Shown here one piece after another: positions 11,499 through 54,586 of a stretch of DNA of 55,243 nt. The notes beneath the pieces are model-generated. The model ran no database searches, was not told where the DNA came from, and saw only the letters and a program-made list of their open reading frames with translations. How positions within the stretch are numbered: position 1 is the stretch's first letter; the number at the start of each line of letters is the position of its first letter. Both the position numbers and the translations under genes were made by a program. Origin of the DNA: Candidatus Muiribacterium halophilum (GTDB lineage: Bacteria > Muiribacteriota > Muiribacteriia > Muiribacteriales > Muiribacteriaceae); contig PKTG01000087.1 in the NCBI GenBank assembly GCA_002869225.1, forward strand, positions 1 to 55,243, in the 5' to 3' direction.

Positions 11499-12236
11499 TC
11501 AAGAAACAACTATATTCACCAGTTTACCTTTCACAAAAATAACTTTTCTTATTGTCTTCCCTTCTGAATATTTTTTTGTTTTATCCGATGAAAGCGCCAT
11601 TTCTTTGACTTTATCTTCAATTTCATCGGGCGCTATATTTATCCTATCTCTGATCTTTCCATTTATCATAATAGGTATCTCTATAGAATCTTCTACACAG
11701 TATTCTTTTTTATACTCAGGCCATTTAGCATCGAAAACACTTTTTCCCAGTCCAAGGTTTGAATAAAGTTCTTCTCCAATATGCGGACAGAACGGAGCAA
11801 GCATCTTGATAGTATCTCTAAGGGACTCACTGATGACAAATTCAGCTTCACCATCAGATCCGTTTTTCTCTATTTCTGTAAGGTATGGATTAAACATATT
11901 GAAAAACTCCATAAAAGAAGATACCGCTGTATTAAACTGATGTCTTTCTCCAACATCATCAGTTGCTTTTTTTATAGTCTGATGAAGTTTTCTATATACA
12001 TCTTTGGCATTTGAGGACATGTCTTCAAATGCAACAACAGATGCATCTTTTTTATAAAATTTTAATGCTCGCTCGAATATAAGGTATACTCTTCTTAAGA
12101 ATTTAAAACAACCAGCAACAGCATCATCTGACCATTCGATATCCTTTTCAGGAGGTGCTGCAAAAAGAATAAACAATCTTGTTGTATCTGCTCCATATTT
12201 TTCAATCATATCAAGAGGGTTTACAACATTTCCTTT
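11499..12236 (-). pseudogene. leuS: Leucyl-tRNA synthetase, C-terminal part after an in-frame stop
   Basis: Continues leuS in the same frame after the TAA at 12239-12237. It reads KGNVVNPLDMIEKYGADTTR, completing KMSKSKGN, then the anticodon-binding domain and the C-terminal tail (IPIMINGKIRDRINI). Joined to the N-terminal part it gives about 835 codons, a normal LeuRS length. An ATG at 12209 could restart translation but has no ribosome site and would not restore the KMSKS loop. LeuRS is essential, so this is either a sequence error or a dead copy with another gene elsewhere. The final stop is TGA. Confidence 0.9.
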
Positions 12237-14006
12237 TTATTTACTCATCTTTGCACCATTAAGATTTACCATTCCCTGAGCTATAAGCTGTTTGAAAGGT
12301 TCATCATCTTTAACGATGTTCAGGTCTTTAAGTACTTTTGCAAAGAATCTCGAATAAAGAAGGTGAAGAATCGCATGTTCTATACCACCGATATACTTAT
12401 CTACTGGATGCCAGTAAGCAACTTTTTCCTTATCTATTGCTTTTTCAGGATCCTGACCTGTAGGATATCTGAAATAATACCATGAGGAACAGATAAATGT
12501 ATCCATTGTATCGGTCTCTCTTTTAGCTTTTGCTCCACACTCAGGACAAGTAGTATTTACAAAATCATCACAAGTTCCAAGAGGAGATTTCCCTTTAGCT
12601 GAAAGATCGACTTTATCCACTGTAGGGAGCATCACAGGAAGATTCTCATCTTTTTCAGGTACCACCCCGCATTTTTCACAGTAAACAACTGGGATAGGAG
12701 CTCCCCAGTATCTTTGTCTTGATATAAGCCAGTCTCTTAATCTGAAATTCTCAGTCTCTCCACCAAAATCTTCTTTATGAGCTTTAGCTGCAATTTTTTT
12801 AATACCTTCATCAGAAGTCATATTTGTAAACTCTCCTGAGTTTACCATCACGCCTTTTTCAACAAAAGCCTGTTGCATATTCTCAGGTGTAGTTTCATCT
12901 GAATCTTTATCCTTTATAACAACCTTTATAGGAAGATCATATTTTTTTGCAAATTCAAAATCTCTCTGATCATGAGCCGGAACAGCCATTACAGCCCCCG
13001 TACCATATTCATATATCACATAGTTTCCAATAAGAATTGGCACTTCTTCGCCTGTAAGAGGATTTATGCAGGTAGCATTTAAAGGGATACCTTTTTTTTC
13101 CATCTCATCTGACATCCTCATAAACTCAGCTGTCTTCAAGGTATCGTTTACAAATTCTTTTATCTCACCTCTATTAGGAGCATCTTTTGACAATTTTTCT
13201 ACAAGAGGATGTTCAGGAGCAAGAACAAGATATGTTACACCAAAAGCTGTATCCGCTCTTGTTGTAAAAACTCTTATCTTCTCCCCGGAATCTTTTACTG
13301 TAAAATCAAGTTCAACACCAGTTGATTTACCAATCCAGTTTGCCTGCATTGTCTTTACTCTATCAGGCCACCCTGGAAGATTATCAAGGTCTTCAAGAAG
13401 TCTATCGGAATAATTTGTTATCCTAAAAAACCATTGTTCGAGATCTTTTTTCTCTACTTCGCTATCACAATATTCACATTGACCGTTTTTAACCTGTTCA
13501 TTAGCGAGAACAGTCTCACAAGTATTACACCAATTCACCTTTGAAGCCTTTTTATAAGCAAGATCATTTTTTAAAAACTGAATAAAAAGCCACTGTGTCC
13601 ATTTATAGTAATCCGGAAGACATGTAGTTACCTCTCTTTTCCAATCGTATACAAGTCCGAGTTTTGCAAACTGTTCTTTCATCTGATCTATATTTGCAAG
13701 AGTCCATTTGTCAGGAGCAACACCTCTTTTCTTAGAAGCATTTTCAGCAGGAAGACCAAAAGCATCCCAACCCATTGGAGACAATACATTTTTTCCCTGC
13801 ATCCAATAGTATCTTGCTAGCAGATCTCCGATAGAATAAACTCTTGTATGACCCATATGAAGTCCATCACCCGAAGGATACGGAAACTGTGTGAGTATAT
13901 ACATCTTTTCTTTATCTTTGTCCTCGGTGACCTTTAACAGATCGGATTCTTTCCATACATCCTGCCATTTCTTCTCAAGACTTTTAAACTCATACTCTTT
14001 ATTCAT
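12237..14006 (-). pseudogene. leuS: Leucyl-tRNA synthetase, N-terminal part, ends at a stop within KMSKS
   Basis: Class I synthetase that charges tRNA-Leu. The 589 residues contain [21 protein letters not shown] with the HMGH (HIGH) signature, zinc-type cysteine pairs ([23 protein letters not shown]), the editing domain (about 220-400, with [15 protein letters not shown]), and [16 protein letters not shown]. Translation ends at NLNGAKMSK followed by TAA where the KMSKS serine belongs. A TCA-to-TAA change (C to A) is the only single-base path from Ser to TAA. GAGGAG precedes the ATG. All other LeuRS features look intact. Confidence 0.93.
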
Positions 14007-15027: not shown

Positions 15028-15369
15028 TTGGAAATTAAATATAGCGAGAGCGAAAACAATTCCGTCATAATCTACCCAATAGGCAGTTATGAGATGGAAG
15101 ACACTAACTTTTTCGAACAAAAGATAACAGAAATATTAGAAACATCCGGGAAAAATAAAGTTGTTTTTAATATGTCAGAACTCAACTATCTCAACTCTAC
15201 GGCATTAAACCAATTTATTGGTGTATATAACAGACTACTTAAGGGTGGCTATAGAATAATCTTTTGCTCCCTTACAAGGCCTGTAGAAACACTGTTCAAT
15301 ATAACTTCACTTAAACTACTTGTTCCTATTTACAAAACAGAATGGGATGCACTTAATTCATTAAAATAA
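15028..15369 (+). CDS. STAS-domain anti-sigma factor antagonist
   Basis: Single-domain protein of 113 residues of the SpoIIAA/RsbV type, which binds an anti-sigma (GHKL kinase) partner and is switched by serine phosphorylation. The phosphorylation loop region reads FNMSELNYLNSTALNQFIG, where the NST position matches the usual D-S-[ST/A]-G site only partly. The start is TTG at 15028, seven bases after AAGGTGG, confirmed by a promoter with TTGACA upstream. No partner kinase is adjacent; a GHKL protein of the RsbW type occurs in the hydrogenase cluster at 50557, but a link is speculative. Confidence 0.85.
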   Translation: MEIKYSESENNSVIIYPIGSYEMEDTNFFEQKITEILETSGKNKVVFNMSELNYLNSTALNQFIGVYNRLLKGGYRIIFCSLTRPVETLFNITSLKLLVPIYKTEWDALNSLK

Positions 15370-16698: not shown

Positions 16699-17421
16699 TT
16701 ATCTAAATTTTATCCCTAATATATTAATAGACTTTTCAACAGGTATATAAAATTCTTTACCCTTTTTCAGATGTACATTCTCGGGTTTGATACCGGCAAA
16801 AAAGATTGTAAAACCTTGAAATCCTGCAACTAAATAACCAGCAGCTCCTGCAACAAAATTTAAATTAGGTTTATCTTTAAAGGAATACTCTTTTTCAAAT
16901 ATCAACGGATGATTGTACCAAGTGTTTACAAACTTAACCCTGGCTTTTATTTTCCCATTTTTCATAAGCGGCATTCTCTTACTTATACTTACTACCTCAA
17001 GTTCTCCTTTTAATCCTTTTGGAAGAACAAGAGCGTTTTCATAAAAGACATCCTCAGAAATCTCTATCTCATAAGTTCCTTTTTTATCAAGCGCACTATG
17101 AATATCCTCATTAAGCCTAAACTTAAGATGCTCACCTTTTTCAACGAGACAGTTTATAACATCTATGTGGGAATGATCTACAAAATGTTTCTTAAGTATT
17201 CTATCCACCCTCTTCCCTCTGTTATAATAAGGAAATTCTTCCCCCCAAGTCTCTATTTCAATTGCAGAAAGTTTTTTACTGTAATCGACATATTCTACTT
17301 TTTTAAAAATTCTCCACTCAAGATAAACTATCTTAGCAAGCATAGACATCTCATCATAAGCTGATGCAAATACATTCACCGATAAGACAAAAACAATCAT
17401 TAATAAGAGCAGTTTTTTCAT
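16699..17421 (-). CDS. Uncharacterised secreted protein, 240 residues
   Basis: Not recognised. It has a Sec signal peptide (MKKLLLLMIVFVLSVNVFASA) and a mostly beta-rich mature part with short charged segments. The sequence LKGELEVVSISKRMPLMKNGKIKARVKF suggests a beta-barrel domain; this would be split as LKGELEVVSISKR and KNGKIKARVKFV in a search. It is last in a run with the YdcF-like protein (4-base ATGA overlap), a lipoprotein and two small proteins, suggesting a cell-envelope role. Confidence 0.7.
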   Translation of the reverse strand: MKKLLLLMIVFVLSVNVFASAYDEMSMLAKIVYLEWRIFKKVEYVDYSKKLSAIEIETWGEEFPYYNRGKRVDRILKKHFVDHSHIDVINCLVEKGEHLKFRLNEDIHSALDKKGTYEIEISEDVFYENALVLPKGLKGELEVVSISKRMPLMKNGKIKARVKFVNTWYNHPLIFEKEYSFKDKPNLNFVAGAAGYLVAGFQGFTIFFAGIKPENVHLKKGKEFYIPVEKSINILGIKFR

Positions 17422-39382: not shown

Positions 39383-41110
39383 TTATCTATTAGAATCTCT
39401 CTTTGTGTATTTTGTATGAAGAAGATGATGTGATTTTTCTCCAAGAGGTTCTTTAAGAAACTCTTTATAAATTACATCGATCGATGGATTCTTATGAGAT
39501 TTTCTGATCTCCATCTGTGCATCTTCACAGTATATTGATTCCATTCTCGCCTGTCTTTTTTCAGGTGAAGTTGGTCTTGGCTGTCCGCCACCACCAATAC
39601 ATCCACCAGGACAACACATGATCTCAATAAAATGATAATCAGCTTCGCCTGCTCTCACTTTATCAAGGATCTTTCTTGCATTTGAAAGTCCGTTAGCAAC
39701 AGCTACTTTAACAGGTATGTCTCCAACCTGAACAGTTGCTTCCTTAACGCCTTCAAGTCCTCTACACATAGTAAGGTTAACATCAGGAAGTTCTTCACCA
39801 GTTACAACTTCATAAACTGTTCTAAGAGCAGCTTCCATAACTCCACCTGTTGCTCCAAATATAGCAGCAGCTCCAGTAGTGATTCCAAATGGAGCATCAT
39901 ATTTTTCTTCGTCTATGACTGCAAAATCTACACCAGCTACTTTAAACATCTTAGCAAGTTCTCTTGTTGTAAGAACTACATCAACATCCTGATAACCGCT
40001 ATCTTTCATCTCCGGCCTGTTACATTCGTATTTCTTTGCAGTACAAGGCATTATTGAGATCGATTTGATAGTCTTCGGATCAACTCCTGATTTTTCAGGA
40101 TAATAAGTCTTAGCAAGAGCACCAAACATCTGCTGAGGTGACTTACATGAAGATACATGATCAAGACAATCAGGGAAGAAAGTCTCAACAAATTTGATCC
40201 AACCTGGTGAACAGGAAGTGATCATTGGAAGTGTGCCATTATTTTTAAGTCTGTGAAGAAGTTCATGACCTTCTTCAATAATTGTAAGGTCAGCAGTAAA
40301 ATCGGTATCGAAGACTTTATCAAAACCAAGTCTTCTAAGTCCAGCAACTAGTTTACCAGTTGAAAGGAAACCTGCATCAAGACCGATAGCTTCACCTATT
40401 GATACTCTAATAGCTGGTGCAGTCTGAACAACAACATGAGTATTAGGATCTTCTATCCATTCCCAAACTTTAGCAGTCTCATCATTTTCATGAAGAGCAC
40501 CTGTTGGACATACATTTATACACTGTCCACAATAAGTACAGGTAGTATCCTGAAGCTTTTTACCAGCAGTTGTATAAGCGATCTTCTCGTATCCTCTTTT
40601 GTGGAATTCAAGAGCATTTACTGTCTGAACTTCCTGACAAGCTCTTACACATCTACCACAGTTTATACATTTATCATGTTCTCTAACTATGATCCCGTTT
40701 TCGTCATCAATATCGTATCCAGGAAGCTGAAGTGCGAAATCGACTTCAGTGATTCCGAAATCAGCTGCAAGGTCCTGAAGTTCACACTGTGTATTTCTTT
40801 CACAGTTAAGACAATCCATTGGATGTCTTGAAAGAATAAGTTCAAGAGCCATCTTTCTTGCAGCTCTTACTTCTTTAGTGTTTGTCTTTACTTCCATTCC
40901 TTCATAAACATTATAAGCACATGATGGCTGGAAAGTTCTCTGTCCTTCTATCTCAACTACACAAAGTCTACAACTTCCTACCTGTCTGAGATCAGGATGA
41001 TAACAAAGCACAGGTATCTTAATTCCAGCTTCTTTACATGCATCAAGTACTGTATAATTTTCCGGTACATTATAACTCTTTCCATCTATTTTAATATTAA
41101 CATTTTTCAT
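39383..41110 (-). CDS. hydA: [FeFe] hydrogenase catalytic subunit, set 1
   Basis: Catalytic subunit of a trimeric NAD-linked hydrogenase, 575 residues. N-terminal [2Fe-2S] domain (CYHPDLRQVGSCRLCVVE), His-ligated [4Fe-4S] (RHPMDCLNCERNTQCELQD), two [4Fe-4S] clusters (CINCGRCVRACQEV, CTYCGQCINVCPTGAL) and the H-cluster domain with L1 TSCSPGW, L2 MPCTAKKYECNRPE, L3 FIEIMCCPGGCIGGGGQP. The L1 pair is Cys-Ser in both HydA copies, a form I recall from the NADH-linked group. Overlaps hydB by one base (TAATG). Confidence 0.95.
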   Translation of the reverse strand: MKNVNIKIDGKSYNVPENYTVLDACKEAGIKIPVLCYHPDLRQVGSCRLCVVEIEGQRTFQPSCAYNVYEGMEVKTNTKEVRAARKMALELILSRHPMDCLNCERNTQCELQDLAADFGITEVDFALQLPGYDIDDENGIIVREHDKCINCGRCVRACQEVQTVNALEFHKRGYEKIAYTTAGKKLQDTTCTYCGQCINVCPTGALHENDETAKVWEWIEDPNTHVVVQTAPAIRVSIGEAIGLDAGFLSTGKLVAGLRRLGFDKVFDTDFTADLTIIEEGHELLHRLKNNGTLPMITSCSPGWIKFVETFFPDCLDHVSSCKSPQQMFGALAKTYYPEKSGVDPKTIKSISIMPCTAKKYECNRPEMKDSGYQDVDVVLTTRELAKMFKVAGVDFAVIDEEKYDAPFGITTGAAAIFGATGGVMEAALRTVYEVVTGEELPDVNLTMCRGLEGVKEATVQVGDIPVKVAVANGLSNARKILDKVRAGEADYHFIEIMCCPGGCIGGGGQPRPTSPEKRQARMESIYCEDAQMEIRKSHKNPSIDVIYKEFLKEPLGEKSHHLLHTKYTKRDSNR

Positions 41111-42696
41111 TATCTTGCTTCCTCCTTAACACCCTGTCTTAGTTCATCTGCGAAGTGTTCTATACAGTCAAGGAAAGGATTAACAGCTGCCTGACCCAAA
41201 CCACAGAATGAAGATCTCTTCATTACTTCACAAAGTTCTTTCATCTTTGTGATATCTTTTTCACTGCCGTTTCCAGCAGCTAGTCTTTTTACCATCTCAT
41301 CAAGTCTGAAAGTTCCTTCTCTACATGGAGTACATTTACCACATGATTCATGTTTAAAAAACTGTGATATAGAAGTAAGATAATCAACTACATCTACATC
41401 TTCTGAACAGAAAAGAATAACACCTGAACCGTGAGTTAGGTTAGCGTTTGCAAGAGTAGCAAGATCAAGTTTGATATCAAAGTTCTTCTCAGGAACGATG
41501 TTTCCTGATGAACCACCGATATGAGCAAATTTTACTTTCTTTCCTGATTTTGTTACTTTTGCTATATTTTCGAATACTTCTCTAAGAGATATACCCATAG
41601 GTACTTCAATAAGACCTTTTTCGTTTATATCACCTATGATTGTAAATACTTTTGTTCCAGCTGAACCTTCAACACCAGTCTTTTTAAACCACTGAGCACC
41701 TTTAGTGATGATCTGCGGAATATTTGCGAAAGTCTCAACATTATTAACTATTGTTGGTTTGTTCCAGAGTCCGCTTACTGGAGGATATGGAGGTTTAAGT
41801 CTAGGCTCTCCTCTTTTTCCTTCAATAGATTCTATAAGAGCAGTCTCTTCACCACAAACATAAGCTCCACCACCAAAGCAGACTTCAAGATCGAATGAGA
41901 AATCACTGCCAAGGATGTTGTTTCCAAGAAGATTGAGTTTCTTAGCATCATCTATTGCTTTCTGAATTCTTTCTATTGAGAGTTTGTATTCTCCTCTGAT
42001 ATAGATAAATCCTTTGTTAGCACCAATAGCATATCCGCATATAGCCATTGATTCAACTACTGAATGAGGGTCACCTTCCATTATAAGTCTGTCTTTGAAA
42101 GTTCCCGGTTCACCTTCATCAGCATTACAGATAACATATTTTTGATCTGCTTCTGTTCCATAAGTGAATTCCCATTTTCTTCCAGTTGGGAAAGCAGCTC
42201 CGCCTCTTCCTCTTAGTTCTGAAGCTTTTACTTCATCTATGACCTGTTTTGGAGACATCTGCGCAAGAACTTTACCAAGAGCTTCATAACCATCATTTGC
42301 GATATATTCGTTTATATCATCAGGATTTATTCTTCCTGCATTTTTTAGGACTATTCTTACCTGACCATCAAGGAGTTTTTCTTCAGCGTTTGCCACAACA
42401 TCAGCAGCTCCTTTACCTTTTGCGATAAGTCTTGTAAGAGCTCTTCCTTTTACAAGATGTTCTTCAACAAGCTCAGCTACGTCGTTTATAGTTACGTTTT
42501 CATAAGCTGTTCCTTCAGTATATACGATCATTCCAACACCGCTGAAGCCAAGTGAACCTGTCTCTATTACTTTTATCTCATTCTCAAGACCTTTTTTTGA
42601 AAGTTCTGAGATAAGTGCTTCTTTTACACCTTTTGCACCCTGGAGTACGGATGGTGTATCCATACCTATTAAAATGTGCGATCTGAAAAATTTCAT
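41110..42696 (-). CDS. hydB: NuoF-like NADH-binding hydrogenase subunit, set 1, Fe-S-poor
   Basis: 528 residues. FMN/NADH domain: SELRGRGGAAFPTGRKWEF, CNADEGEPGTFKDR, GAYVCGEETALIESIEGKRG, and the N3-type cluster SCGKCTPCREGTFRLDEM. The N-terminal thioredoxin-like domain has lost all its cysteines (HILIGMDTPSVLQGAKG; IETGSLGFSGVG), unlike the paralogue at 44959. The C-terminal two-[4Fe-4S] domain is also absent (ends LRQGVKEEAR). It is thus a stripped version with fewer redox centres, which may mean no electron bifurcation. Confidence 0.94.
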   Translation of the reverse strand: MKFFRSHILIGMDTPSVLQGAKGVKEALISELSKKGLENEIKVIETGSLGFSGVGMIVYTEGTAYENVTINDVAELVEEHLVKGRALTRLIAKGKGAADVVANAEEKLLDGQVRIVLKNAGRINPDDINEYIANDGYEALGKVLAQMSPKQVIDEVKASELRGRGGAAFPTGRKWEFTYGTEADQKYVICNADEGEPGTFKDRLIMEGDPHSVVESMAICGYAIGANKGFIYIRGEYKLSIERIQKAIDDAKKLNLLGNNILGSDFSFDLEVCFGGGAYVCGEETALIESIEGKRGEPRLKPPYPPVSGLWNKPTIVNNVETFANIPQIITKGAQWFKKTGVEGSAGTKVFTIIGDINEKGLIEVPMGISLREVFENIAKVTKSGKKVKFAHIGGSSGNIVPEKNFDIKLDLATLANANLTHGSGVILFCSEDVDVVDYLTSISQFFKHESCGKCTPCREGTFRLDEMVKRLAAGNGSEKDITKMKELCEVMKRSSFCGLGQAAVNPFLDCIEHFADELRQGVKEEAR

Positions 42697-42710
42697 CTGT
42701 TTACTCCGCC

Positions 42711-43175
42711 TTATTTATATTTTTCGATTATTCCCTTGACCATTGAAGGATCAAGGTTTCCATGTACATCCTCGTTGATCATGACCGCAGGAGCGACTGC
42801 ACAAACACCAAGACAAGCTGTAGTCTCAAGAGTGAAAGTACCACAAGGGGTTGTCTCTCCTACTTCAATTCCAAGCTCACTTTTAAAAGCTTCAAGGACG
42901 TCTTTAGCACCTACTACATGACAAGGTCCTGATTCGCACATCCTTATAACATATTTTCCTCTTTTTTCAGTTGAAAACATACTGTAGAAAGATGTAACAC
43001 CATATAATTTATTTAGGGGTACACCTGTCTTTTCTGCGATCTTTTTCATACAATCTTCGCAGATAAAGTTCTCGCCACTTGCATCCTGAACCATATGCAG
43101 AATATGCATAAGGTTTCCTTTTTCAGGAGAGTATTTGTTTAAAATACTTTCCACATCAACATTACAACAAGCCAT
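42711..43175 (-). CDS. hydC: NuoE-like hydrogenase subunit, set 1
   Basis: [2Fe-2S] thioredoxin-like subunit, 154 residues. Cluster ligands are visible: CESGPCHVVGAKD and CLGVCAVAPAVMINED; helical N-terminus with GNLMHILHMVQDASG. Passes electrons between the NADH subunit and HydA. Between hydA-2 (upstream) and hydB-1, each gap under 20 bases. Confidence 0.94.
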   Translation of the reverse strand: MACCNVDVESILNKYSPEKGNLMHILHMVQDASGENFICEDCMKKIAEKTGVPLNKLYGVTSFYSMFSTEKRGKYVIRMCESGPCHVVGAKDVLEAFKSELGIEVGETTPCGTFTLETTACLGVCAVAPAVMINEDVHGNLDPSMVKGIIEKYK

Positions 43176-43193
43176 CTGACTTTCCTCCGTGTT

Positions 43194-44945
43194 TTATTTT
43201 TTTATATTATTATAGTACTTCTGCTCTTTAAAATGAGTATGAAGATATTTGTGAGACTTTTCCCCAAGAGGCTCACCAAGATATTCATCATACAACTTTT
43301 TGATAAATGGGTTTTCATGTGATTTTCTTAGTTCCATAGAACTATCACCTTTATATATACCCTCTATTCTTTTCTTTCTCACTTCTGTATTAGTTGGAAT
43401 AGGCTGTCCGCCACCACCAATACATCCACCAGGACATGCCATTATCTCAATAAAATGATAATCGACTTCACCAGCTCTTACTTTTTCCATAAGCTTTCTG
43501 GCATTTGCAAGTCCCGATGCAACTGCAACTTTTACTTCGACTTCTTTTCCATCTATTTTAGTTTTTACTGCTGCTTCTTTTACACCATCGAGTTTTAGAC
43601 CTCTTACCGCTTTATAATCGATATTCTCGATCGAATGTCCTTCAAGAACTTCAAGAGCGGTTCTGAGAGCAGCTTCCATAACTCCACCTGATGCTCCGAA
43701 AATAAGAGCAGCACCCGTTGACATTCCGAGAGGATTGTCCGGCTGCTCATCTGGAAGATTTACAAAATCAAGATTTCTCTGTCTGATCATCTTTGCAAAC
43801 TCTCTAGTAGTTACAACTATATCAACATCAGACCATCCATCAGCACCAAGCTGTGGTCTCTTTGATTCATCTTTTTTTGCTGTACATGGCATTACAGATA
43901 TCACTCTGATCTTTGAAGGGTCAATACCTTCCTTTTCAGCAAAAAAGGATTTAACCATAGCTCCAACCATAGCCTGAGGAGACTTAGCTGAAGAAAGGTT
44001 AGGTACAAGCTCAGGGAAGAAAGTCTCAAGGAAGTTTACCCATCCAGGAGAACATGATGTAAGCATAGGAAGTGTTCCACCTTCCTTTACCCTTTTAATA
44101 AACTCATATCCCTCTTCCATTATTGTAAGATCAGCTCCGAAATCAGTATCAAAGATATGATCGAATCCCATCTTTCTCATTGCAGCAAAGATCTTACCTG
44201 TTACAATAGTTCCAGGCTCAAGTCCAAATTCTTCACCTAAGGTTACTCTTACACTAGGTGCTACCTGGACTACCGTTATAATATCAGGATCCATTATTGC
44301 ATCCCATACTTTTGCTGTATCATCCTGATCCTTAAGTGCCGCTACAGGACAGTTAAGAACACACTGACCACATCCAACACAAACAGAATCCTGAAAACCT
44401 ACATTAAAAGGTGTACCGACTTCAGCGTTGAAACCTCTTTTCTTTGAATAGATCGCTCCAACTGTCTGAACAGTGTTGCACATAGTCTCACATCTTTTAC
44501 AATAGATACATTTTTCGCCATCGTATCTTAAAGAGTTTGCTGCAGAATCTTTTCCTCTATCACTCTTGTCACCTCTGTATGGTACTATCTCAATACCATG
44601 CTCGGCTGCAAGATCCTGAAGTTCACATCTTGTGTTCTTCTCACAGGTAAGACATGTAGTCGGGTGATCTGAAAGAATAAGCTCAAGAACAAACTTTCTG
44701 GCTTTTCTTACTTTTTCACTATGTGTTAAGACTTTAAGTCCCTGACATACAGGAGTTGTACATGAAGTTACAAGCCTTCCCGTATTTTCTATCTCAACAA
44801 GACACATCCTACATGCACCGATTTTCTGAAGATTTTCAAGAAAACATAGAGTAGGTATTCTAACGTCGGCTTCTTTTGCAGCCTGTAGAATTGTAAAATC
44901 CTCAGGAACGCTCACCTTCTTATTATCAATATACACATCTATCAT
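43194..44945 (-). CDS. hydA: [FeFe] hydrogenase catalytic subunit, set 2
   Basis: 583-residue paralogue of the subunit at 39383. The same cluster set is present: CFLENLQKIGACRMCLVE, DHPTTCLTCEKNTRCELQD, CIYCKRCETMCNTV, CVGCGQCVLNCPVAAL, then L1 TSCSPGWVNFLE, L2 MPCTAKKDESKRP, L3 FIEIMACPGGCIGGGGQP and the C-terminal small-subunit-like tail PLGEKSHKYLH. L3 differs from set 1 in an Ala for the first of two neighbouring cysteines. Probably NAD- or ferredoxin-linked with the Fe-S-rich NuoF copy upstream. Confidence 0.95.
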   Translation of the reverse strand: MIDVYIDNKKVSVPEDFTILQAAKEADVRIPTLCFLENLQKIGACRMCLVEIENTGRLVTSCTTPVCQGLKVLTHSEKVRKARKFVLELILSDHPTTCLTCEKNTRCELQDLAAEHGIEIVPYRGDKSDRGKDSAANSLRYDGEKCIYCKRCETMCNTVQTVGAIYSKKRGFNAEVGTPFNVGFQDSVCVGCGQCVLNCPVAALKDQDDTAKVWDAIMDPDIITVVQVAPSVRVTLGEEFGLEPGTIVTGKIFAAMRKMGFDHIFDTDFGADLTIMEEGYEFIKRVKEGGTLPMLTSCSPGWVNFLETFFPELVPNLSSAKSPQAMVGAMVKSFFAEKEGIDPSKIRVISVMPCTAKKDESKRPQLGADGWSDVDIVVTTREFAKMIRQRNLDFVNLPDEQPDNPLGMSTGAALIFGASGGVMEAALRTALEVLEGHSIENIDYKAVRGLKLDGVKEAAVKTKIDGKEVEVKVAVASGLANARKLMEKVRAGEVDYHFIEIMACPGGCIGGGGQPIPTNTEVRKKRIEGIYKGDSSMELRKSHENPFIKKLYDEYLGEPLGEKSHKYLHTHFKEQKYYNNIKK

Positions 44946-44958
44946 CCGGGCCTCCTGA

Positions 44959-46743
44959 TCACTCTTGGGTTATCGCATCAAACGGACACTTTTCGTAGCA
45001 GCTTCCGCATTTGATACAACCTGACTGGTCTATGACATGTTTTTCTTTTCTTTCACCTGTTATAACATCGACAGGACATGCCTTTTTACAGATTCCACAA
45101 CCGACACATTTATCTGTAATCTCATATTTTACAAGATCTTTGCAGACCTTAGCTTTACATTTGCCTTTTTCTATATGTTCTATATATTCGTCTTTAAAGA
45201 ATCTTAAAGTCGAAAGAACAGGATTAGGAGCTGATTGTCCAAGACCACAAAGAGATGTCTCTCTTATATTCTGAGCAAGTTCGGTCAGTTTATCAAGGTC
45301 TTCTATCTTTGCTACTCCTCTGGTTATCCTATCCAGGATCTCATACATCCTTTTAGTCCCGATTCTACAAGGAACACATTTTCCACATGATTCATCTACA
45401 CAAAACTGCATAAAGAACTTTGCAAGATCAACCATACAAGTCTTTTCACTCATAACGATAAGTCCACCTGAACCCATCATAGTACCAAGCTTCTTAAGCG
45501 AGTCGAAATCTACTGGTGTATCAAGATATTCCTCGGTTATACATCCACCTGAAGGTCCTCCTGTCTGTGCAGCCTTAAATTTAAGTCCGCCCGGAATACC
45601 TCCGCCAATATCAAATATTATCTCTCGAAGAGTAGTACCCATTGGCACCTCTACAAGACCAGCATTAGCGATGTCACCGGCAAGTGCAAACACTTTTGTA
45701 CCAGGACTTCCTTCTGTTCCTATCTTTCTAAACTCATTCGCTCCATTAAGTATTATCCATGAAACATTAGAATAAGTCTCGACATTGCTTATCATAGTTG
45801 GTCTATGGAAAAGACCTTCTGTTGTAGGATAAGGTGGTCTAGGACTAGGCTCACCTCTTTTTCCTTCAATAGAATGCATAAGAGCAGTCTCTTCACCACA
45901 TACAAAAGCTCCGGCACCGATCCTAAGTTCCAGATCAAAAGAAAAACCACTTCCAAGTATATCATCACCAAGAAGACCGTATTTTCTCGCCTGTGAGATC
46001 GCAAGATTGATTCTTTCTATTGCAAGCGGATACTCAGCTCTACAATAGATGAAACCTCTACTTGCTCCGGTAGCATAACCTGCTATTATCATACCTTCAA
46101 GCACAAGATGCGGATCGCCTTCAAGTACGGATCTATCCATAAAAGCACCAGGGTCACCTTCATCAGCGTTACACACTATATATTTAGGATCGTTCTCTGC
46201 TTTAGAGAGGAATTCCCATTTAAGTCCTGTCTGGAAACCACCGCCTCCTCTACCTCGAAGTCCTGAATCCTTCACTTCTCTTATAATATCTTCCGGTTTT
46301 TTCTCAAAAGCTTTTGCAATAGCTTCATAACCATCTCTTGCAAGATATTCCTCGATCCTTGTAGGATCAATAAATCCACAGTTTCTTAGTACTATCTTTT
46401 TCTGTCTTTTGAAAAAATCGATCTCATCTATCTTCTGAAGCACGCTTTCATCAGGATTTGTGTAAAGATATTTCTCTACAGTCCTTCCTTTAATAAAATG
46501 TTCCTGTACGATCTCTTCCATGTTCTCAGGTTTGAGTTTCTTATAGAAGATCCCTTCAGGATAGACAACGACTATCGGACCCATCTCACATGCTCCCATA
46601 CAGCCGGTCTCTATTATAAGTACTTCATCTTTAAGATTGTTTTTCTCAACTGATTCTCTTAAAGCTTTAGAAACAGCACCACAACCGGATGAAATACAGC
46701 CGGCTCCAGCACAAACAAGTACGTGTAATCTATAGCTTGCCAT
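44959..46743 (-). CDS. hydB: NuoF-like hydrogenase subunit, set 2, Fe-S-rich
   Basis: 594 residues with three parts: an N-terminal thioredoxin-like [2Fe-2S] domain (VCAGAGCISSGCGAVSKAL; ETGCMGACEMGP), the FMN/NADH domain (LRGRGGGGFQTGLKWEF, CNADEGDPGAFMDR, CGEETALMHSIEGKRG, SCGKCVPCRIGTKRM), and a C-terminal pair of [4Fe-4S] motifs (CVGCGICKKACPVDV, CIKCGSCYEKCPFDA). This is the full layout of the HydB subunit of electron-bifurcating (NADH plus ferredoxin) enzymes. Confidence 0.95.
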   Translation of the reverse strand: MASYRLHVLVCAGAGCISSGCGAVSKALRESVEKNNLKDEVLIIETGCMGACEMGPIVVVYPEGIFYKKLKPENMEEIVQEHFIKGRTVEKYLYTNPDESVLQKIDEIDFFKRQKKIVLRNCGFIDPTRIEEYLARDGYEAIAKAFEKKPEDIIREVKDSGLRGRGGGGFQTGLKWEFLSKAENDPKYIVCNADEGDPGAFMDRSVLEGDPHLVLEGMIIAGYATGASRGFIYCRAEYPLAIERINLAISQARKYGLLGDDILGSGFSFDLELRIGAGAFVCGEETALMHSIEGKRGEPSPRPPYPTTEGLFHRPTMISNVETYSNVSWIILNGANEFRKIGTEGSPGTKVFALAGDIANAGLVEVPMGTTLREIIFDIGGGIPGGLKFKAAQTGGPSGGCITEEYLDTPVDFDSLKKLGTMMGSGGLIVMSEKTCMVDLAKFFMQFCVDESCGKCVPCRIGTKRMYEILDRITRGVAKIEDLDKLTELAQNIRETSLCGLGQSAPNPVLSTLRFFKDEYIEHIEKGKCKAKVCKDLVKYEITDKCVGCGICKKACPVDVITGERKEKHVIDQSGCIKCGSCYEKCPFDAITQE

Positions 46744-46752
46744 ATTTCCCCC

Positions 46753-47238
46753 TTATTTGTATTTTGCGATAATATCGTCTATTTCTTTTGCAGAGACTCT
46801 TTTAAAAATATCTTCGTCGTTTACCGTAACAACAGGAGCAAGTGAACACGCTCCAACACATCTTACAGTCTCAAGAGAGAACAGACCATCATCGGTCGTT
46901 CCTCCCACTTCAATACCAAGCTTTTCAGAAAACTGTTCCACAAGCTTGTTAGCTCCCCTTACATAACACGCTGTACCTGTACAGATCTTAACAACATATT
47001 TACCTTTTGGCACCATTGTAAAAAAATGATAAAAAGTAATAGTTCCATATACCTCAGATAGAGGAATATTAAGACCTTCCGAGATCCTTTTCTGGATCTG
47101 CGGAGTAAGTGCACCGTAATGAGTTTGAGCTTTATGAAGGACGTTTATTAAAATACCTTCATTATCTCTATTCTCTTCGATTATGTTGTCAAGCAAACTA
47201 AAATCAGTTTCTTTTCCATTTTCGCAGCTACATACCAT
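46753..47238 (-). CDS. hydC: NuoE-like hydrogenase subunit, set 2
   Basis: 161 residues, [2Fe-2S] ligands CTGTACYVRGANKL and CVGACSLAPVVTVNDED. The helical N-terminus includes GILINVLHKAQTHYGALTP, as in NuoE. Nine bases upstream of the Fe-S-rich HydB. The set order is C-B-A, repeated in set 1. Confidence 0.94.
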   Translation of the reverse strand: MVCSCENGKETDFSLLDNIIEENRDNEGILINVLHKAQTHYGALTPQIQKRISEGLNIPLSEVYGTITFYHFFTMVPKGKYVVKICTGTACYVRGANKLVEQFSEKLGIEVGGTTDDGLFSLETVRCVGACSLAPVVTVNDEDIFKRVSAKEIDDIIAKYK

Positions 47239-47265
47239 AATTCACCTCTCAATCAAAGACACTTA

Positions 47266-47628
47266 CTATTTTTCTGAAGAAAAGACCATATCTCCAACTA
47301 TATTTCCGTTAACGACATGCTCAGCAACTATTCTCTTTGCACCTTCAGCATCGACTTTCTTGTAAATTACCTTCTGTCCGTCTTTTTCTACTTCAACTAG
47401 AGGTTCCTGCTCACAATAACCCATACAACCGCTCTGAGATACTATGACATCAGCAAGATTTCTTTTTTCGATTTCTTCCATTATAGAAGAAGTTACATCT
47501 CTTGCACCAGCTGCTATACCACAAGTTCCCATTCCAACTGTGATCTTTGCAGTCGCTTTTCCTTCTCTTGTCTTAAGTTCCTTAACAGCTTTTTCCTTAA
47601 GTTTCTTGAGTTCATTTAAAGTAGTCAT
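47266..47628 (-). CDS. Small [2Fe-2S] thioredoxin-like ferredoxin
   Basis: 120-residue single-domain protein with cluster ligands GMGTCGIAAGARD and QSGCMGYCEQEPLVEVE. It resembles the N-terminal domain of NuoF-like subunits (HydB-2), and free-standing copies are common in trimeric hydrogenase clusters. Likely electron carrier or a sensor partner for the GHKL protein encoded just upstream. Four-base gap to that gene. Confidence 0.9.
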   Translation of the reverse strand: MTTLNELKKLKEKAVKELKTREGKATAKITVGMGTCGIAAGARDVTSSIMEEIEKRNLADVIVSQSGCMGYCEQEPLVEVEKDGQKVIYKKVDAEGAKRIVAEHVVNGNIVGDMVFSSEK

Positions 47629-47631
47629 TTG

Positions 47632-48177
47632 CTACCTCCCCAAATTTTTTAATCCCTCATTTATATCTTTTTTTAGCAATTTTTGAACATCTAAAGAATT
47701 TATAGGCACTTCCCCAAGCACCTCTTTCCACTCTCTTGAATCAATTGAATAATCTGAATTATCTTTTTTATAGGTGAATTTAAAATCTATATCAGGATTA
47801 AGTACAATAAGTGAACGAATTGCACCGGCAATGTCGCCTATAGGTGGTCTATCAATATGTGAGTTTTTCATCACAGCTTCCAGTTTAGTCCCCTTTCCTT
47901 TTTCAGAAGCGATCTTAAACTCCCCCTCACACATCTCGGTGATCTGCCTTATAAAAGGGATCCCAAGACCAACACGTCTGGTCGTTCTTGTTGTTATAAA
48001 GGGACTTTTGATCGACTGTGCAAAGTCGTTATCCATCCCCTGACCATTGTCTGTTATTTTCAATGTCAGTATATCATTTATCGTGCTTTCGTCAAGTGTA
48101 ATCTCTATAAATGACGCTTTTGCCTTTATTGAGTTTTCTACAAGATCTAAAATGTTAAGTGCCAGCTCTATCATCAT
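47632..48177 (-). CDS. GHKL ATP-binding protein in hydrogenase cluster
   Basis: 181 residues, a histidine-kinase-like ATPase domain without a visible phospho-accepting His domain. N box LNILDLVENSIKAKAS, G1 LKITDNGQGMD, G2 RRVGLGIPFIRQ, G3 EKGKGTKLEAV. The C-terminal tail (about 120-181) has no motif I know. Genes of this type recur in [FeFe] hydrogenase operons of Thermotogae and Clostridia, where a signalling role is assumed. Confidence 0.85.
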   Translation of the reverse strand: MMIELALNILDLVENSIKAKASFIEITLDESTINDILTLKITDNGQGMDNDFAQSIKSPFITTRTTRRVGLGIPFIRQITEMCEGEFKIASEKGKGTKLEAVMKNSHIDRPPIGDIAGAIRSLIVLNPDIDFKFTYKKDNSDYSIDSREWKEVLGEVPINSLDVQKLLKKDINEGLKNLGR

Positions 48178-48182
48178 GGTAA

Positions 48183-48890
48183 TTAATCCTCTTTATAGTA
48201 AAAGTTGGAGGTCAACAGATTCTTAATAACCGATTCCTTATCCGGCTTTGATTCTATCAAAAAGCACCGGTGACCTATCCAGTCAATAAAATGTGCATCA
48301 GAATTTCTTATAGTCTTTTCCATTCCCTTTTTATCAAAACCGTAAATCTCAAAAGTCATATCCTGATATTTATCAGGTATAAAACCGAGGGTGGCAAGAA
48401 TGGAGTAATAATCTCTATCGATATGCGAAAAAAAGAAAAAACCATCATTTTCCTTTACAAGTTTAATTACATCATCACAAGGAAGTGTTGCCTGATTTAG
48501 AAATATCTTTTCATGTCTTATTATATTTTCATCTTCATCTACTACAAGTTGATAACCGTTACGATCCTCGTCGATCTCAATAGGAAGAAGCTTCTCGTGA
48601 AGTTTTTTCTCAACAGCTCTCGCCTGAGATATTTCTGAAAAAAGAGCTACTACATGAAATTCCTCGGCAACTGTTATTTCCATTCCACATAAGACTATTA
48701 TATTATTTTTTTCACCCAGTCTTTGAGCTACCTCACAGTTTCCGCATGAATTGTGATCGGTTATAGCAATTACATCTATATTAAGCTCTTTTGCTTTCTC
48801 AATGATATTTTTCGGAGACATATCAAGAGATGCACAGGCTGATAACACACTATGAATATGTAGATCCGCTTTCAAAATGCTTTTTTTCAT
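48183..48890 (-). CDS. PHP-domain metal-dependent phosphoesterase
   Basis: 235 residues of the TrpH/PHP group. Metal ligands: ADLHIHSVLSACASLDMSPK (HxH), AITDHNSCGN (DH), GMEITVAEEFHVVALF, FFSHIDRDYY and NSDAHFIDWIG. Probably hydrolyses a nucleotide or small phosphate. Its presence within the hydrogenase cluster and before the GHKL gene suggests a role in the same signalling path. Overlaps the DRTGG gene by four bases. Confidence 0.88.
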   Translation of the reverse strand: MKKSILKADLHIHSVLSACASLDMSPKNIIEKAKELNIDVIAITDHNSCGNCEVAQRLGEKNNIIVLCGMEITVAEEFHVVALFSEISQARAVEKKLHEKLLPIEIDEDRNGYQLVVDEDENIIRHEKIFLNQATLPCDDVIKLVKENDGFFFFSHIDRDYYSILATLGFIPDKYQDMTFEIYGFDKKGMEKTIRNSDAHFIDWIGHRCFLIESKPDKESVIKNLLTSNFYYKED

Positions 48891-49219
48891 CTTACATTAA
48901 GTTCTAAAAGACTCTGACTTATCTGAAAAGCATTTTTTTCTGCTGTAGCAATGACTATATCTTCGTCTAAAGCTTTTTTTAGCATCTCATCGTTTGGTTT
49001 TCTTGAGTTTGCGAGTATGATAAACTTAATATCCTTCAATATACATACAGCTATTACATTCTCATGAGAAAGTATAGTTACGAGAAGACTCTCATCAGGA
49101 CAGTTTGCCATGACATCCGAAAGCATCTCAGATACATAGCCTCTTTCTATCTCCATATCATCATTTATCGATGTATGAAGCTTCAACGATAATTTTTCTA
49201 TTATCTCACTTATTCTCAT
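48887..49219 (-). CDS. DRTGG-type small domain protein
   Basis: 110 residues. The pattern IERGYVSEMLSDVMANC, then LLVTILSHENVIAVCILKDI and a repeat-like ALDEDIVIATAEKNAFQISQ matches DRTGG domains, which are found in regulators with CBS or phosphotransacetylase partners. Its homologue encoded at 50966 is alike in size and motifs. Overlaps both neighbours, so tightly coupled. Confidence 0.8.
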   Translation of the reverse strand: MRISEIIEKLSLKLHTSINDDMEIERGYVSEMLSDVMANCPDESLLVTILSHENVIAVCILKDIKFIILANSRKPNDEMLKKALDEDIVIATAEKNAFQISQSLLELNVR

Positions 49220-50555
49220 CTTTTATCCTCTTTCCGGAAGAAATATCACCCAGCTCTTCCTTGATGTTTTTTATCTTTTCTTTAAGAACAAAAATACAAT
49301 CAAATTTGGAAGCTTTTCCCTGTACGACATCCTCTGCAAGTGTCTCACATGTCGGACAACCACATATACCACAATCTATTCCCGGGAATTCCTTCATAAG
49401 AACATCTATCTTCTCTGCTTTTTCCATAGCTTTTTCAATATCTGTATCCAGTCTGTTTATACTTCTTGGCTGAAGCTTTCTACCTTCATTAAAGAATTCC
49501 ATGATAAAGAACTTCATATCGTAATCTTCAAACACTTTTTCTCTTTTAACAGTTGATTCTTTCATTCTTCCGGCTAACCTTTTAAGCCTGGTCTTTGCCA
49601 TGAACTTATCAGTTGGAGCAAGCACTCCGCCAACACATCCAGGTATACAAGCCTGGACTTCTATGAATTCATAGGATGAGAACTCTTTATCATCAACATT
49701 CTCAAAAAAAGAGATTATATTATGAATACCCGCAACGGCTATCTTCTTTTCCACATGAACGTTTCTTATCTCACCTTCGTGAACGCCCCAGATAATACCG
49801 TATTTTCCGGCATGTTCGTAGTTTTTCGTCTCTTTTATCTCCTGTATCCTTGACATTACCGCATCAAAGACATCCGTCATAGAAAAGACACCATCAACAG
49901 GTGATTTCTTCTTTCCTTCAGGCTGATTTACAGCTGTAACTTTTGCAGGACATGGCGAGATAAAGAATACTCCCACCTCTTTCTCATTACAGCCAGTCTT
50001 TTTCATTACCATATCTTTACTGATCTTTGCGGCTATATCCATTGGAGGTTCAAGCGGAGCAATATATTCAGCATATTCAGGAAACCTTGTAAGTATGAGT
50101 CTTACAACAGCCGGACATGCCGAAGATATGACAGGTCTTTTTTTGTTTTCCTGCATAAACTTCTCAGTAGCTTTATTCACAAGTTCTGCAGCTGCAGCGA
50201 CCTCAAATATATATTCAAAACCCATTAGATTAAGTGCTGTATATACCTTATCAAGCGGAATATCATCAGGATCAAACTGAGCCATAAAAGAAGGAGCTGG
50301 CAAAGCCACTGTATATTTAAAATCGTTCAACATATCAAGAGAATCAGTATGCGCGTATTTAGCAAAGTTAGGACAGGTCCTTATACATTCACCACAATCA
50401 ATACACCTCTCCTCAATGATCGTCGCTTTTCCGTCATATACCCTGATAGCCTGAGTAGGACAGGTCCTTATACAATGAGTACAACCTTTACAGTCATCCT
50501 CTTTAAGTCTGACCGAATGATAATATCTTTTTTTATTTTTTTCGTTATCTTTCAT
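49206..50555 (-). CDS. [FeFe] hydrogenase-like iron-sulfur protein, sensory type (HydS-like)
   Basis: 449 residues. Two [4Fe-4S] motifs at the start (CKGCTHCIRTCPTQAI, CIDCGECIRTCPNF), a hydrogenase large-domain core with reduced motifs (L1 ISSACPAVVRL, L2 SPCPAKVTA, L3 FIEVQACIPGCVGG), and a C-terminal Fe-S motif CGICGCPTCETLAEDV. The L1 Cys-Cys pair is Ala-Cys, and the L2 acidic end is absent. Such proteins are thought to sense hydrogen or redox state, not to turn over quickly. Located between a GHKL gene and a DRTGG gene. Confidence 0.85.
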   Translation of the reverse strand: MKDNEKNKKRYYHSVRLKEDDCKGCTHCIRTCPTQAIRVYDGKATIIEERCIDCGECIRTCPNFAKYAHTDSLDMLNDFKYTVALPAPSFMAQFDPDDIPLDKVYTALNLMGFEYIFEVAAAAELVNKATEKFMQENKKRPVISSACPAVVRLILTRFPEYAEYIAPLEPPMDIAAKISKDMVMKKTGCNEKEVGVFFISPCPAKVTAVNQPEGKKKSPVDGVFSMTDVFDAVMSRIQEIKETKNYEHAGKYGIIWGVHEGEIRNVHVEKKIAVAGIHNIISFFENVDDKEFSSYEFIEVQACIPGCVGGVLAPTDKFMAKTRLKRLAGRMKESTVKREKVFEDYDMKFFIMEFFNEGRKLQPRSINRLDTDIEKAMEKAEKIDVLMKEFPGIDCGICGCPTCETLAEDVVQGKASKFDCIFVLKEKIKNIKEELGDISSGKRIKDENK

Positions 50556-50556
50556 A

Positions 50557-50973
50557 TTAATGCTGGAAATCTATCCTCATGGATAGCTCCGTCCCCTTTC
50601 CTACCTCCGTCTTTATATTAAGGTCATCAACATTCTTTTTTATGTTTGGAAGTCCCATTCCTGCACCAAATCCCATTTCCCTGACCTTTTCAGAAGCGGT
50701 AGAGAATCCTTCTGTCATAGCTTTGTCTACATCAGGTATACCAGGTCCTTTATCTGAGACCAGTATTTTGATGTGGTCCTTAGCTACAACAACATTTATA
50801 TCTCCGCTGTAGGCATGTGCGACGACATTAATCTCCGCCTCGTACATAGCCACTGCCACTTTCTTTATTATTTTTGATTGAAGTCCTAACCTTTTTAAAA
50901 GTTTCTTTATATCGCTCGAAGCACTGCCTGCTTCGGAAAAGTTCCCTCCTTCAAGATGATAGACTTTAAGCAT
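50557..50973 (-). CDS. RsbW-like anti-sigma GHKL protein
   Basis: About 138 residues, a serine kinase/anti-sigma type ATPase: N box AMYEAEINVVAHAYSGD, G1 LVSDKGPGIPDVDKAM, G2 GFGAGMGLPNIKKNVDD. ATG 50973 is chosen because it overlaps the preceding DRTGG stop by eight bases and the MLKVYHLEGG start fits; the longer 51000 reading lies inside that gene. In the cluster it may pass a signal from the sensory hydrogenase-like protein. Confidence 0.85.
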   Translation of the reverse strand: MLKVYHLEGGNFSEAGSASSDIKKLLKRLGLQSKIIKKVAVAMYEAEINVVAHAYSGDINVVVAKDHIKILVSDKGPGIPDVDKAMTEGFSTASEKVREMGFGAGMGLPNIKKNVDDLNIKTEVGKGTELSMRIDFQH

Positions 50974-51325
50974 TTTTGGCTTTTTCCTTTTGCAGATCAA
51001 GTGTCTCTTTGATCTTTCCTGCTACATCAAACATCGAAAGCTCAGTACTGAGAAGTGTTATTTCATTATCTGCAGCAATATCCACAAGCTTTTTCTCTAT
51101 TGCTTTTCCTCTAACTATGATAACCGTCTTGATATCCACCATCTCGGCAGTCCTTAAAGCCTGTGCGTTAGATAAAGCAGTTATAAGAGCTGTACATTCA
51201 CCTTCGTGAGTATATGCAAGTACATCACTCATAAGATCGGTACAACAAAATTCCTTTATCTCACATTCTTCTCCTCTGCATATAACTTTAGCATCTATAA
51301 GTTTAGCTAGATCATCAACATTCAT
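50966..51325 (-). CDS. DRTGG-domain protein
   Basis: 119 residues: LIDAKVICRGEECEIKEFCC, then TDLMSDVLAYTHEGECTALI and LSNAQALRTAEMVDIKTVII, typical of DRTGG domains. Start at the second ATG (51325), four bases after GGAGGA. Located between hydG and the RsbW-like gene; its paralogue follows the sensory hydrogenase-like gene. It may bind a nucleotide and act as a signal adaptor, an inference. Confidence 0.85.
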   Translation of the reverse strand: MNVDDLAKLIDAKVICRGEECEIKEFCCTDLMSDVLAYTHEGECTALITALSNAQALRTAEMVDIKTVIIVRGKAIEKKLVDIAADNEITLLSTELSMFDVAGKIKETLDLQKEKAKNA

Positions 51326-51353
51326 CATTCCTCCTATTGAACTTTCTGTTCAA

Positions 51354-52745
51354 TTAGCAAAAGATGTCTCTTTCTCCATTTTCGAGTTTTTTAAGCATCT
51401 CAAGCGTTTGCTCTTTCCCATTTTTATCTGCAAAATCATCAAGTTCTTTCTTTATAAGTTCTTCACCGGCTTTTCTTGTCCTGTCGGATGCATAATCCAT
51501 AAGATATTCTTTAAAAGTCACAAGAGCATTTGGCTGACAGTACTGTTGTATAAGACCCGGTTTTGTAATTGCCATAAAGTCTATTCCAGTTCTTCCAAGT
51601 CGATAACAACCCGTACAGAAAGATGGTATAAAACCATTTTTAGAAAGATCGTAAATCACTTGATCAAGAGTCCTGAAATCACCAAGTGCAAATTGCTGTT
51701 TAGTAGCTAAATCTTTTTCAGCTGCATCATATCCCCCTGGGTCGGTCTTCGAACCTGCGCTCACCTGTGATACTCCAAGATGGATAAGCTTCGCTCGAAG
51801 TTCGGTAGTCTCTCTTGTTGAAAGGATTATTCCTGTATAAGGAACAGCAAGTCTTATTATTGCAACCAGTTTCATAAACTCATCATCAGACATTGGATAA
51901 GGAACTGTGTTAGCAGCAGGTGCATTTAAGGCTGGTTCTATTCTTGGTATTGAAATTGTATGAGGACCGACTCCGATCTTCTTCTCAAGATAATGACAAT
52001 GAGATATCAAAGCAAGAGTCTCAAACTTATGATCAAAAAGTCCAAAAAGCACTCCAGCACCAAGATCATCAATACCAGCTTCAAAAGCTCTTTCAAAAGC
52101 TGTTATCCTATAATCATAATCAGATTTAGGTCCGCTTGGATGCATCTTTTTATAGGTCTCTCTGTGATATGTTTCCTGAAATTCCTGATAAGTCCCTATT
52201 CCGGTAGCTTTGATCTTTTTAAAATCCTCAACTTCAAGAGGTGCCAGATTAACATTTATCCTTCTTATCTCATTTTTTCCATCATTTGCACTATAAACTG
52301 TCTTTATAGCTTCAACAACAAAATCAGCATTTGCATATTTTGGATGTTCTCCGCATACAAGAAGCACTCTTTTATGACCCATTCTTGTTAGAAGTTGAGT
52401 CTCTCTTTTTAATTCATCTAAAGAAAGCGTCTTTCTTACAAGCTCGGTATTTGATCTTCTGAAACCACAATAAAGACAATCGTTAATACATTCATTAGTC
52501 ACATAAAGAGGAGCAAATATTACTATTCTTTTTCCGTAAATATCCTCTTTTATTTTTTTTGCTGCGGATTTAATCTCTACAACAAGTCCGGGGTCATCCA
52601 CATTCAGGAGCGTCGCTACGTCTTTTATCGAAAGTCCTTCTTTTCTTAAAGCTTTGTTTATAATATTGTGGACCTCTGATATCGTGTAATCTTTTGTTTC
52701 CTCGATAAGACTGAATATTTTTCCCTCATCGATAATCTTGTTCAT
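51354..52745 (-). CDS. hydG: [FeFe] hydrogenase maturase HydG (radical SAM tyrosine lyase)
   Basis: Cleaves tyrosine to the CO and CN ligands of the H-cluster diiron site. 463 residues: radical SAM motif ECINDCLYCGFRRSNTEL (C-x3-C-x2-C), the TIM barrel, and the C-terminal auxiliary cluster motif FIPSFCTGCYRLGRTG with two cysteines. GGAGG lies five bases before the ATG. First gene of the long hydrogenase run. HydE and HydF are not in the window. Confidence 0.95.
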   Translation of the reverse strand: MNKIIDEGKIFSLIEETKDYTISEVHNIINKALRKEGLSIKDVATLLNVDDPGLVVEIKSAAKKIKEDIYGKRIVIFAPLYVTNECINDCLYCGFRRSNTELVRKTLSLDELKRETQLLTRMGHKRVLLVCGEHPKYANADFVVEAIKTVYSANDGKNEIRRINVNLAPLEVEDFKKIKATGIGTYQEFQETYHRETYKKMHPSGPKSDYDYRITAFERAFEAGIDDLGAGVLFGLFDHKFETLALISHCHYLEKKIGVGPHTISIPRIEPALNAPAANTVPYPMSDDEFMKLVAIIRLAVPYTGIILSTRETTELRAKLIHLGVSQVSAGSKTDPGGYDAAEKDLATKQQFALGDFRTLDQVIYDLSKNGFIPSFCTGCYRLGRTGIDFMAITKPGLIQQYCQPNALVTFKEYLMDYASDRTRKAGEELIKKELDDFADKNGKEQTLEMLKKLENGERDIFC

Positions 52746-53539: not shown

Positions 53540-53767
53540 ATGAAAAAAACATTGCTTTTAGTTATCGCAGTAGTCAGTATAGTTTCGGTTGGTGCTCTTC
53601 AGCTTTCCGATTTAAACGCAGCATTCGATGTAGTCAAAGTAACTTCCAACACCGGTGATTATACTGTAGAAAACACAGTTCAACTCGTTTCAAAACAAAC
53701 AAGAGACGCTTCTCAGTTTAGCTATTATTACAGCGTTAATGCGGAAAAAAATACCGCTTCAATATAA
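53540..53767 (+). pseudogene. endA: Endonuclease I, N-terminal part, ends at in-frame TAA
   Basis: 75 codons then TAA (53765-53767). It has a Sec signal (MKKTLLLVIAVVSIVSVGA) and a short exported N-terminal region, VVKVTSNTGDYTVENTVQL. GGGAG precedes the ATG at 53540. The same frame is open after the stop for 272 codons carrying the catalytic domain, so this is one gene broken by one codon. The parent codon cannot be told; TCA is one choice. Confidence 0.8.
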
Positions 53768-54586
53768 GAGATAGACTTCTATCTTTTAAACGGAAGATAT
53801 TATGCACGTATTCTTAGAGATAATTGTTACGATGTATACAGAGTAAATGAAAATTCCGAATTTTACGTATCTCTTGAGAATGTAAACGATGAATCAGATG
53901 TAATAAGACTTGTCTATAACAAGGTATACAATGATTTTTATTATCAGGAATATTATGAAAGTATATCAGATCTTTATGATGAGGATATGTATTATGAACT
54001 ATACGGTCTTTTAAACAACCATAAATCTGTAGGATATGACGGAGCTAAAGAAGAGATGTTTGGTAATATAGATAACGATGAAAACGGAGACATTCATTGC
54101 GTTTATACTACCCTTGTAGTACATTCGTCTTATCCTGCAAACGATGTTATGAACTGTGAACATACATGGCCACAGTCAAAATTTGGAAGCGACAACGTAT
54201 ATTTCAAGAAAAGTGATCTTAACCACCTTTTTCCAACAGATAGCAGAAGTAATTCAGCTAGAGGAAACTATCCATTTGGATGGGTAAAAGAAATAGATTG
54301 GCAGAAAGACGATAGTATTCGTGGAGCTTCTGTAGAGAGTGGCAGAAGAGTATTTGAACCTCAGGATAGCCATAAAGGAAATTGTGCAAGAGCGATGTTA
54401 TATATGTCTGTAAGATACAGAATGCCTCTTGATGCTGAACAGGAAGCAACACTTAGAGAATGGAATAAACTTGATCCTGTTGATGAAGCTGAGATCATGA
54501 GAAACAATAAAGTTGAAGAATTACAACACACTCGTAATCCTTTCATCGATAGACCAGACTTTGTAGATCATATATCAGATTTTTGA
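53768..54586 (+). pseudogene. endA: Endonuclease I (Bsn/EndA-type), catalytic part downstream of the stop
   Basis: Same frame as the signal-peptide part. It holds the secreted nuclease fold, residues counted in the joined reading about 77-348: YGLLNNHKSVGYDGAKEEMF, CEHTWPQSKFG (His and metal site), KSDLNHLFPTDSRSNSARGN and GNCARAMLYMSVRYRMP. First ATG after the stop is at 53987 without a ribosome site; a product from there would lack the signal. DNA scavenging outside the cell is the family role. Followed by a terminator. Confidence 0.88.

Follow-up and report, generated by a model that had tools for sequence, protein, structure and literature searches.

The in-frame TAA that interrupts the leucyl-tRNA synthetase gene (leuS) of Candidatus Muiribacterium halophilum can be attributed with high confidence to an erroneous base in the assembly consensus. 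About two dozen stops of false appearance, this one included, were encountered in 0.8 Mb of the source draft genome, and the TAA is therefore almost certainly an error of this kind and not the sign of a new genetic code.

The stretch of DNA analysed, referred to as the window, comprises 55,243 nucleotides of the contig PKTG01000087.1 (assembly GCA_002869225.1). The draft genome from which it comes (G000) is made up of 2.93 Mb in 148 contigs and is 89% complete with 4.4% contamination. The relatives with which it has been compared belong, at the closest, to the same phylum. On the minus strand the window also carries an extensive gene cluster (39383-52745) for [FeFe]-hydrogenase, NuoF-like and Fe-S proteins, including a radical SAM/BATS protein at 51354-52745. 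On the basis of its gene content this cluster is predicted to be a locus of anaerobic hydrogen metabolism.

The leuS gene and its in-frame stop

The leuS frame extends on the minus strand from 14006 to 11499 and has 836 codons including the natural TGA, or 835 residues when the internal TAA is read through. Around 12231-12248 this strand reads AAG ATG AGT AAA TAA AAA GGA AAT GTT GTA AAC CCT, which is translated as K M S K stop K G N V V N P. The original prediction of a TAA placed exactly at the second serine of the KMSKS motif is thus seen in the sequence at codon 590. The parts of the gene, and a second interrupted gene of the window, are as follows.

12240..14006, minus strand: N-terminal part of leuS, 589 codons, with the catalytic core, the CP1 editing domain and KMSK
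12237..12239, minus strand: in-frame TAA at LeuRS codon 590, the last serine of KMSKS
11499..12236, minus strand: C-terminal part of leuS, from KGNVVNP through the anticodon-binding and C-terminal domains to the natural TGA stop
53765..53767, plus strand: second TAA of the window, in a signal-peptide protein with an Endonuclease_1 domain (PF04231, E-value 1.4e-32) encoded by the gene at 53540-54586

The tRNA-synt_1 and editing domains are matched 5' of the TAA and the anticodon-binding domain 3' of it. The frame read through the stop scores 1052.8 bits against TIGR00396, the family of bacterial leucyl-tRNA synthetases (curated cut-off 548.4 bits), covering model positions 1-842 of 843 with one TAA inside, which agrees with the earlier description of a gene otherwise complete at about 835 codons. 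Apart from codon 590, leuS is full length and well conserved, and the assembled gene reads KMSK-stop in place of an intact KMSKS in one open frame. The column of the stop is occupied by serine in 84 of 87 LeuRS homologues and by a stop in none of them, and the full-length leuS genes of the relatives are all open. The claim that TCA to TAA is the sole one-change derivation of this stop from serine holds, and TCA is the commonest serine codon in the window.

Two other residues of this LeuRS, A91S in the GLPAENAA motif and A200S, deviate at near-invariant columns, each requiring a G to T change, and a third near-invariant column carries L331I, which a C to A change can give. None of the LeuRS homologues compared carries more than one deviation that is explained by C to A only. 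A91S and A200S are possibly further base errors in leuS. Since RpoB of the same genome has no C to A excess, the missense pattern of leuS is suggestive only.

A search for another leuS, which had been proposed as one explanation of the break, revealed no second copy in the whole draft (89% complete). The remaining matches to the leuS query are other class I synthetases encoded in separate open frames.

Interrupted genes elsewhere in the draft genome

A detector of stops flanked by good same-frame coding signal was run on 0.80 Mb of G000, of which about 0.74 Mb lies beyond the window. It reported 27 candidates (33.8 per Mb), some of which are ordinary gene junctions such as HPr/PtsI and the starts of tsaD and dxr. 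The same detector reported 2 candidates in 0.40 Mb (5.0 per Mb) and 1 candidate in 0.40 Mb (2.5 per Mb) of two AT-rich relatives, G010 and G022 respectively. In-frame stops are thus in excess in G000 over comparable genomes. Frameshift-like breaks number 2 in 0.8 Mb of G000 and none in the controls, a rise that is slight at most, and the excess is therefore one of substitutions. The contigs also contain 6 single-base Ns in 0.8 Mb.

Genes with a clear interruption include those of PheS, V-ATPase A and V-ATPase B, where the stop is TGA, and those of MutL, HtpG, MurG, a penicillin-binding protein, a sigma-54 activator and a YhaM-like HD protein, where it is TAA. A scan of G000 for ABC-ATPases has identified two further broken genes, an ABC-F protein with a TAA and UvrA with a TAG. 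When nine of the interrupted genes other than leuS were searched as a chimeric query, each was found in one copy with one in-frame stop (3 TGA, 1 TAG and 5 TAA). The matches in the relatives are devoid of stops except for two PheS matches, which extend beyond the end of the PheS segment of the query.

The TGAs of V-ATPase A and B are located at 15030-15032 and 17067-17069 of locus L153 (contig C124 of G000), at positions where homologues have glycine. In contig coordinates the stop of V-ATPase B is C124:55067-55069, that of pheS is C14:97274-97276 and that of uvrA is C9:826-828. Taken alone, the V-ATPase pair could pass for a Gracilibacteria-like code in which UGA specifies glycine. V-ATPase B of this locus is 87% identical to that of the relative G007 (L168, contig C70), whereas the LeuRS pair of the two genomes is only 45% identical, and the V-ATPase operon is a candidate for horizontal transfer on the strength of this comparison.

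Mutation class at the interrupting stops

The residues at the stops were compared against homologues in the PDB and in the relatives. Glycine is found at the stop column of V-ATPase B, and also of V-ATPase A and PheS where these could be aligned, and glutamate is found in UvrA, the penicillin-binding protein and activators of the NtrC/FleQ type (sigma-54). Some of the columns vary, UvrA having Lys, Asp or Ala as well, MutL having Ser, Gly or Ala and HtpG having Ala, Ser or Glu. A single change can turn a Ser, Gly or Glu codon into the stop observed only by way of TCA to TAA, GGA to TGA, GAA to TAA or GAG to TAG, each of which is a G:C to T:A change. When weighted by the codon usage of G000, this class accounts for 30% of the single-change routes that lead to a stop. 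At none of the checked stops is the consensus residue Lys, Tyr, Leu, Trp, Gln or Arg, from which most other routes start. The G:C to T:A type thus fits the stops that have comparable homologues, and because homologues vary at several of these positions it is there a fit and not a proof. No excess of C to A is seen at the conserved columns of RpoB in G000 (4 of 24, compared with 13 of 100 for the controls), which indicates that the errors are not uniformly dense.

Origin of the interrupting stops

The involvement of all three stops, the differing residues for which they stand, the single-copy and in several cases essential nature of the genes, the fit to one transversion class and the lack of a clear rise in frameshifts together agree with consensus errors of the oxidised-guanine type. 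The TAA of leuS would belong with single-base G:C to T:A substitutions that occur throughout the draft genome. The most likely source of these would be oxidised guanine (8-oxoguanine read as T) or similar damage to single molecules. In thinly covered DNA, or in DNA amplified from very little template, one damaged molecule could set the consensus. We infer both that the reads have TCA at this codon and that 8-oxoguanine is the cause. In the living organism codon 590 is very probably an intact TCA, and leuS would be translated with the standard bacterial code into a normal LeuRS of full length.

It is documented that the shearing of DNA can generate 8-oxoguanine, which gives rise to C:G to A:T errors (PMC5521083). 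The library artefacts described there, and by Costello et al. as cited there, resemble the stops of G000 in being single-base G:C to T:A substitutions spread over unrelated genes with no comparable rise in frameshifts. They differ in being low-frequency read errors, whereas the errors of G000 would have to be present in the consensus, which would require that coverage was very low or that the template molecules were few.

The main rival of a base error is a true mutation in the sampled cells, which might have been dying, might belong to a G:C to T:A mutator devoid of MutM and MutY, or might be represented by a single-cell genome with real nonsense mutations. It owes this place to the GO repair set, which looks absent in the draft (89% complete): no Fpg/MutM domain was found, and the one HhH-GPD protein, of 216 residues, is Nth-sized, with none of the size of MutY. 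The A91S, A200S and L331I changes of leuS are also in keeping with it. Many anaerobes, however, are without MutM, and the Thermotoga and Bacteroides control genomes also lack the PF01149 domain. RpoB argues against a mutator as well. The broken genes, leuS and pheS included, are single copies and several are essential, so that no living population could sustain all of the breaks, and a real mutator leaves those of leuS and pheS in living cells unexplained. We consider a true mutation improbable. The more specific proposal, that dying or heavily oxidised cells of a naturally GO-repair-deficient lineage were sampled and that the genome is a snapshot of their oxidative mutation load in place, is very improbable.

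The missing 11% of the genome, together with the 4.4% contamination, leaves room for a second intact leuS, of which the present copy would be a pseudogene. This is highly improbable, as the present copy is well conserved over its full length save for codon 590, and since the other broken genes are likewise single-copy it would need many hidden duplicates.

Genetic code and translation of the interrupted genes

Recoding or programmed read-through, in which the stop would be read as serine or another residue through a suppressor tRNA or a reassignment, is in accord with the frames that remain open and conserved past their stops and with the lack of a second leuS. Reassignment would make one stop stand for one amino acid and cease to be a terminator, whereas in G000 all three stops are hit and stand for different residues. 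Among 58 ORF ends of the window 37 are TAA, 15 are TGA and 6 are TAG. Both genes of the RF-1 family (365 and 349 residues) have open frames, in keeping with RF1 and RF2, and no loss or change of a release factor is seen. None of the 39 tRNA genes found in G000, a set that is incomplete, has a UUA, CUA or UCA anticodon according to ARAGORN, and tRNA-Ser(UGA), the reader of TCA, is present. According to a screen of more than 250,000 genomes, the known bacterial stop-codon changes all involve UGA (PMC8629427). Because in-frame TAA, TAG and TGA occur as a mixture across the draft, both release factors are present and no suppressor tRNA was found among those 39 genes, recoding and read-through are very unlikely, and we accord this explanation almost no probability. 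Of the three options that had been offered for the break, namely a sequence error, a second leuS and some form of read-through, the first is thus the one retained.

Bacterial reassignments of UGA, to glycine in Gracilibacteria/Absconditabacteria and to tryptophan in Mycoplasma, share with G000 the occurrence of in-frame stops in conserved genes, and the three checked TGAs of G000 are at glycine positions as in the former. Unlike these systems G000 also has TAA and TAG, at Ser and Glu, together with RF2, no tRNA with a UCA anticodon and a TGA that still serves as a terminator.

In Aquifex aeolicus the LeuRS is divided between two frames, and the split point lies elsewhere than the KMSKS loop. 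A natural two-subunit enzyme in G000, its alpha chain ending at KMSK and its beta chain restarting at the first in-frame ATG past the TAA (12209, nine codons downstream), has hardly any probability, for it would be cut by a single stop inside the catalytic KMSKS loop of one frame, none of the 87 homologues is split there, and the same type of break affects many unrelated genes of G000.

Implications

If the stops are base errors, the draft of this organism would carry spurious stops on the order of tens per Mb. Claims of gene loss, pseudogenes or recoding that are drawn from it are not trustworthy unless the reads are consulted. The pattern also provides a cheap test for such genomes: recoding is indicated when a single stop codon is affected at a single residue, and damage when each of the three stops is affected through a single class of mutation.
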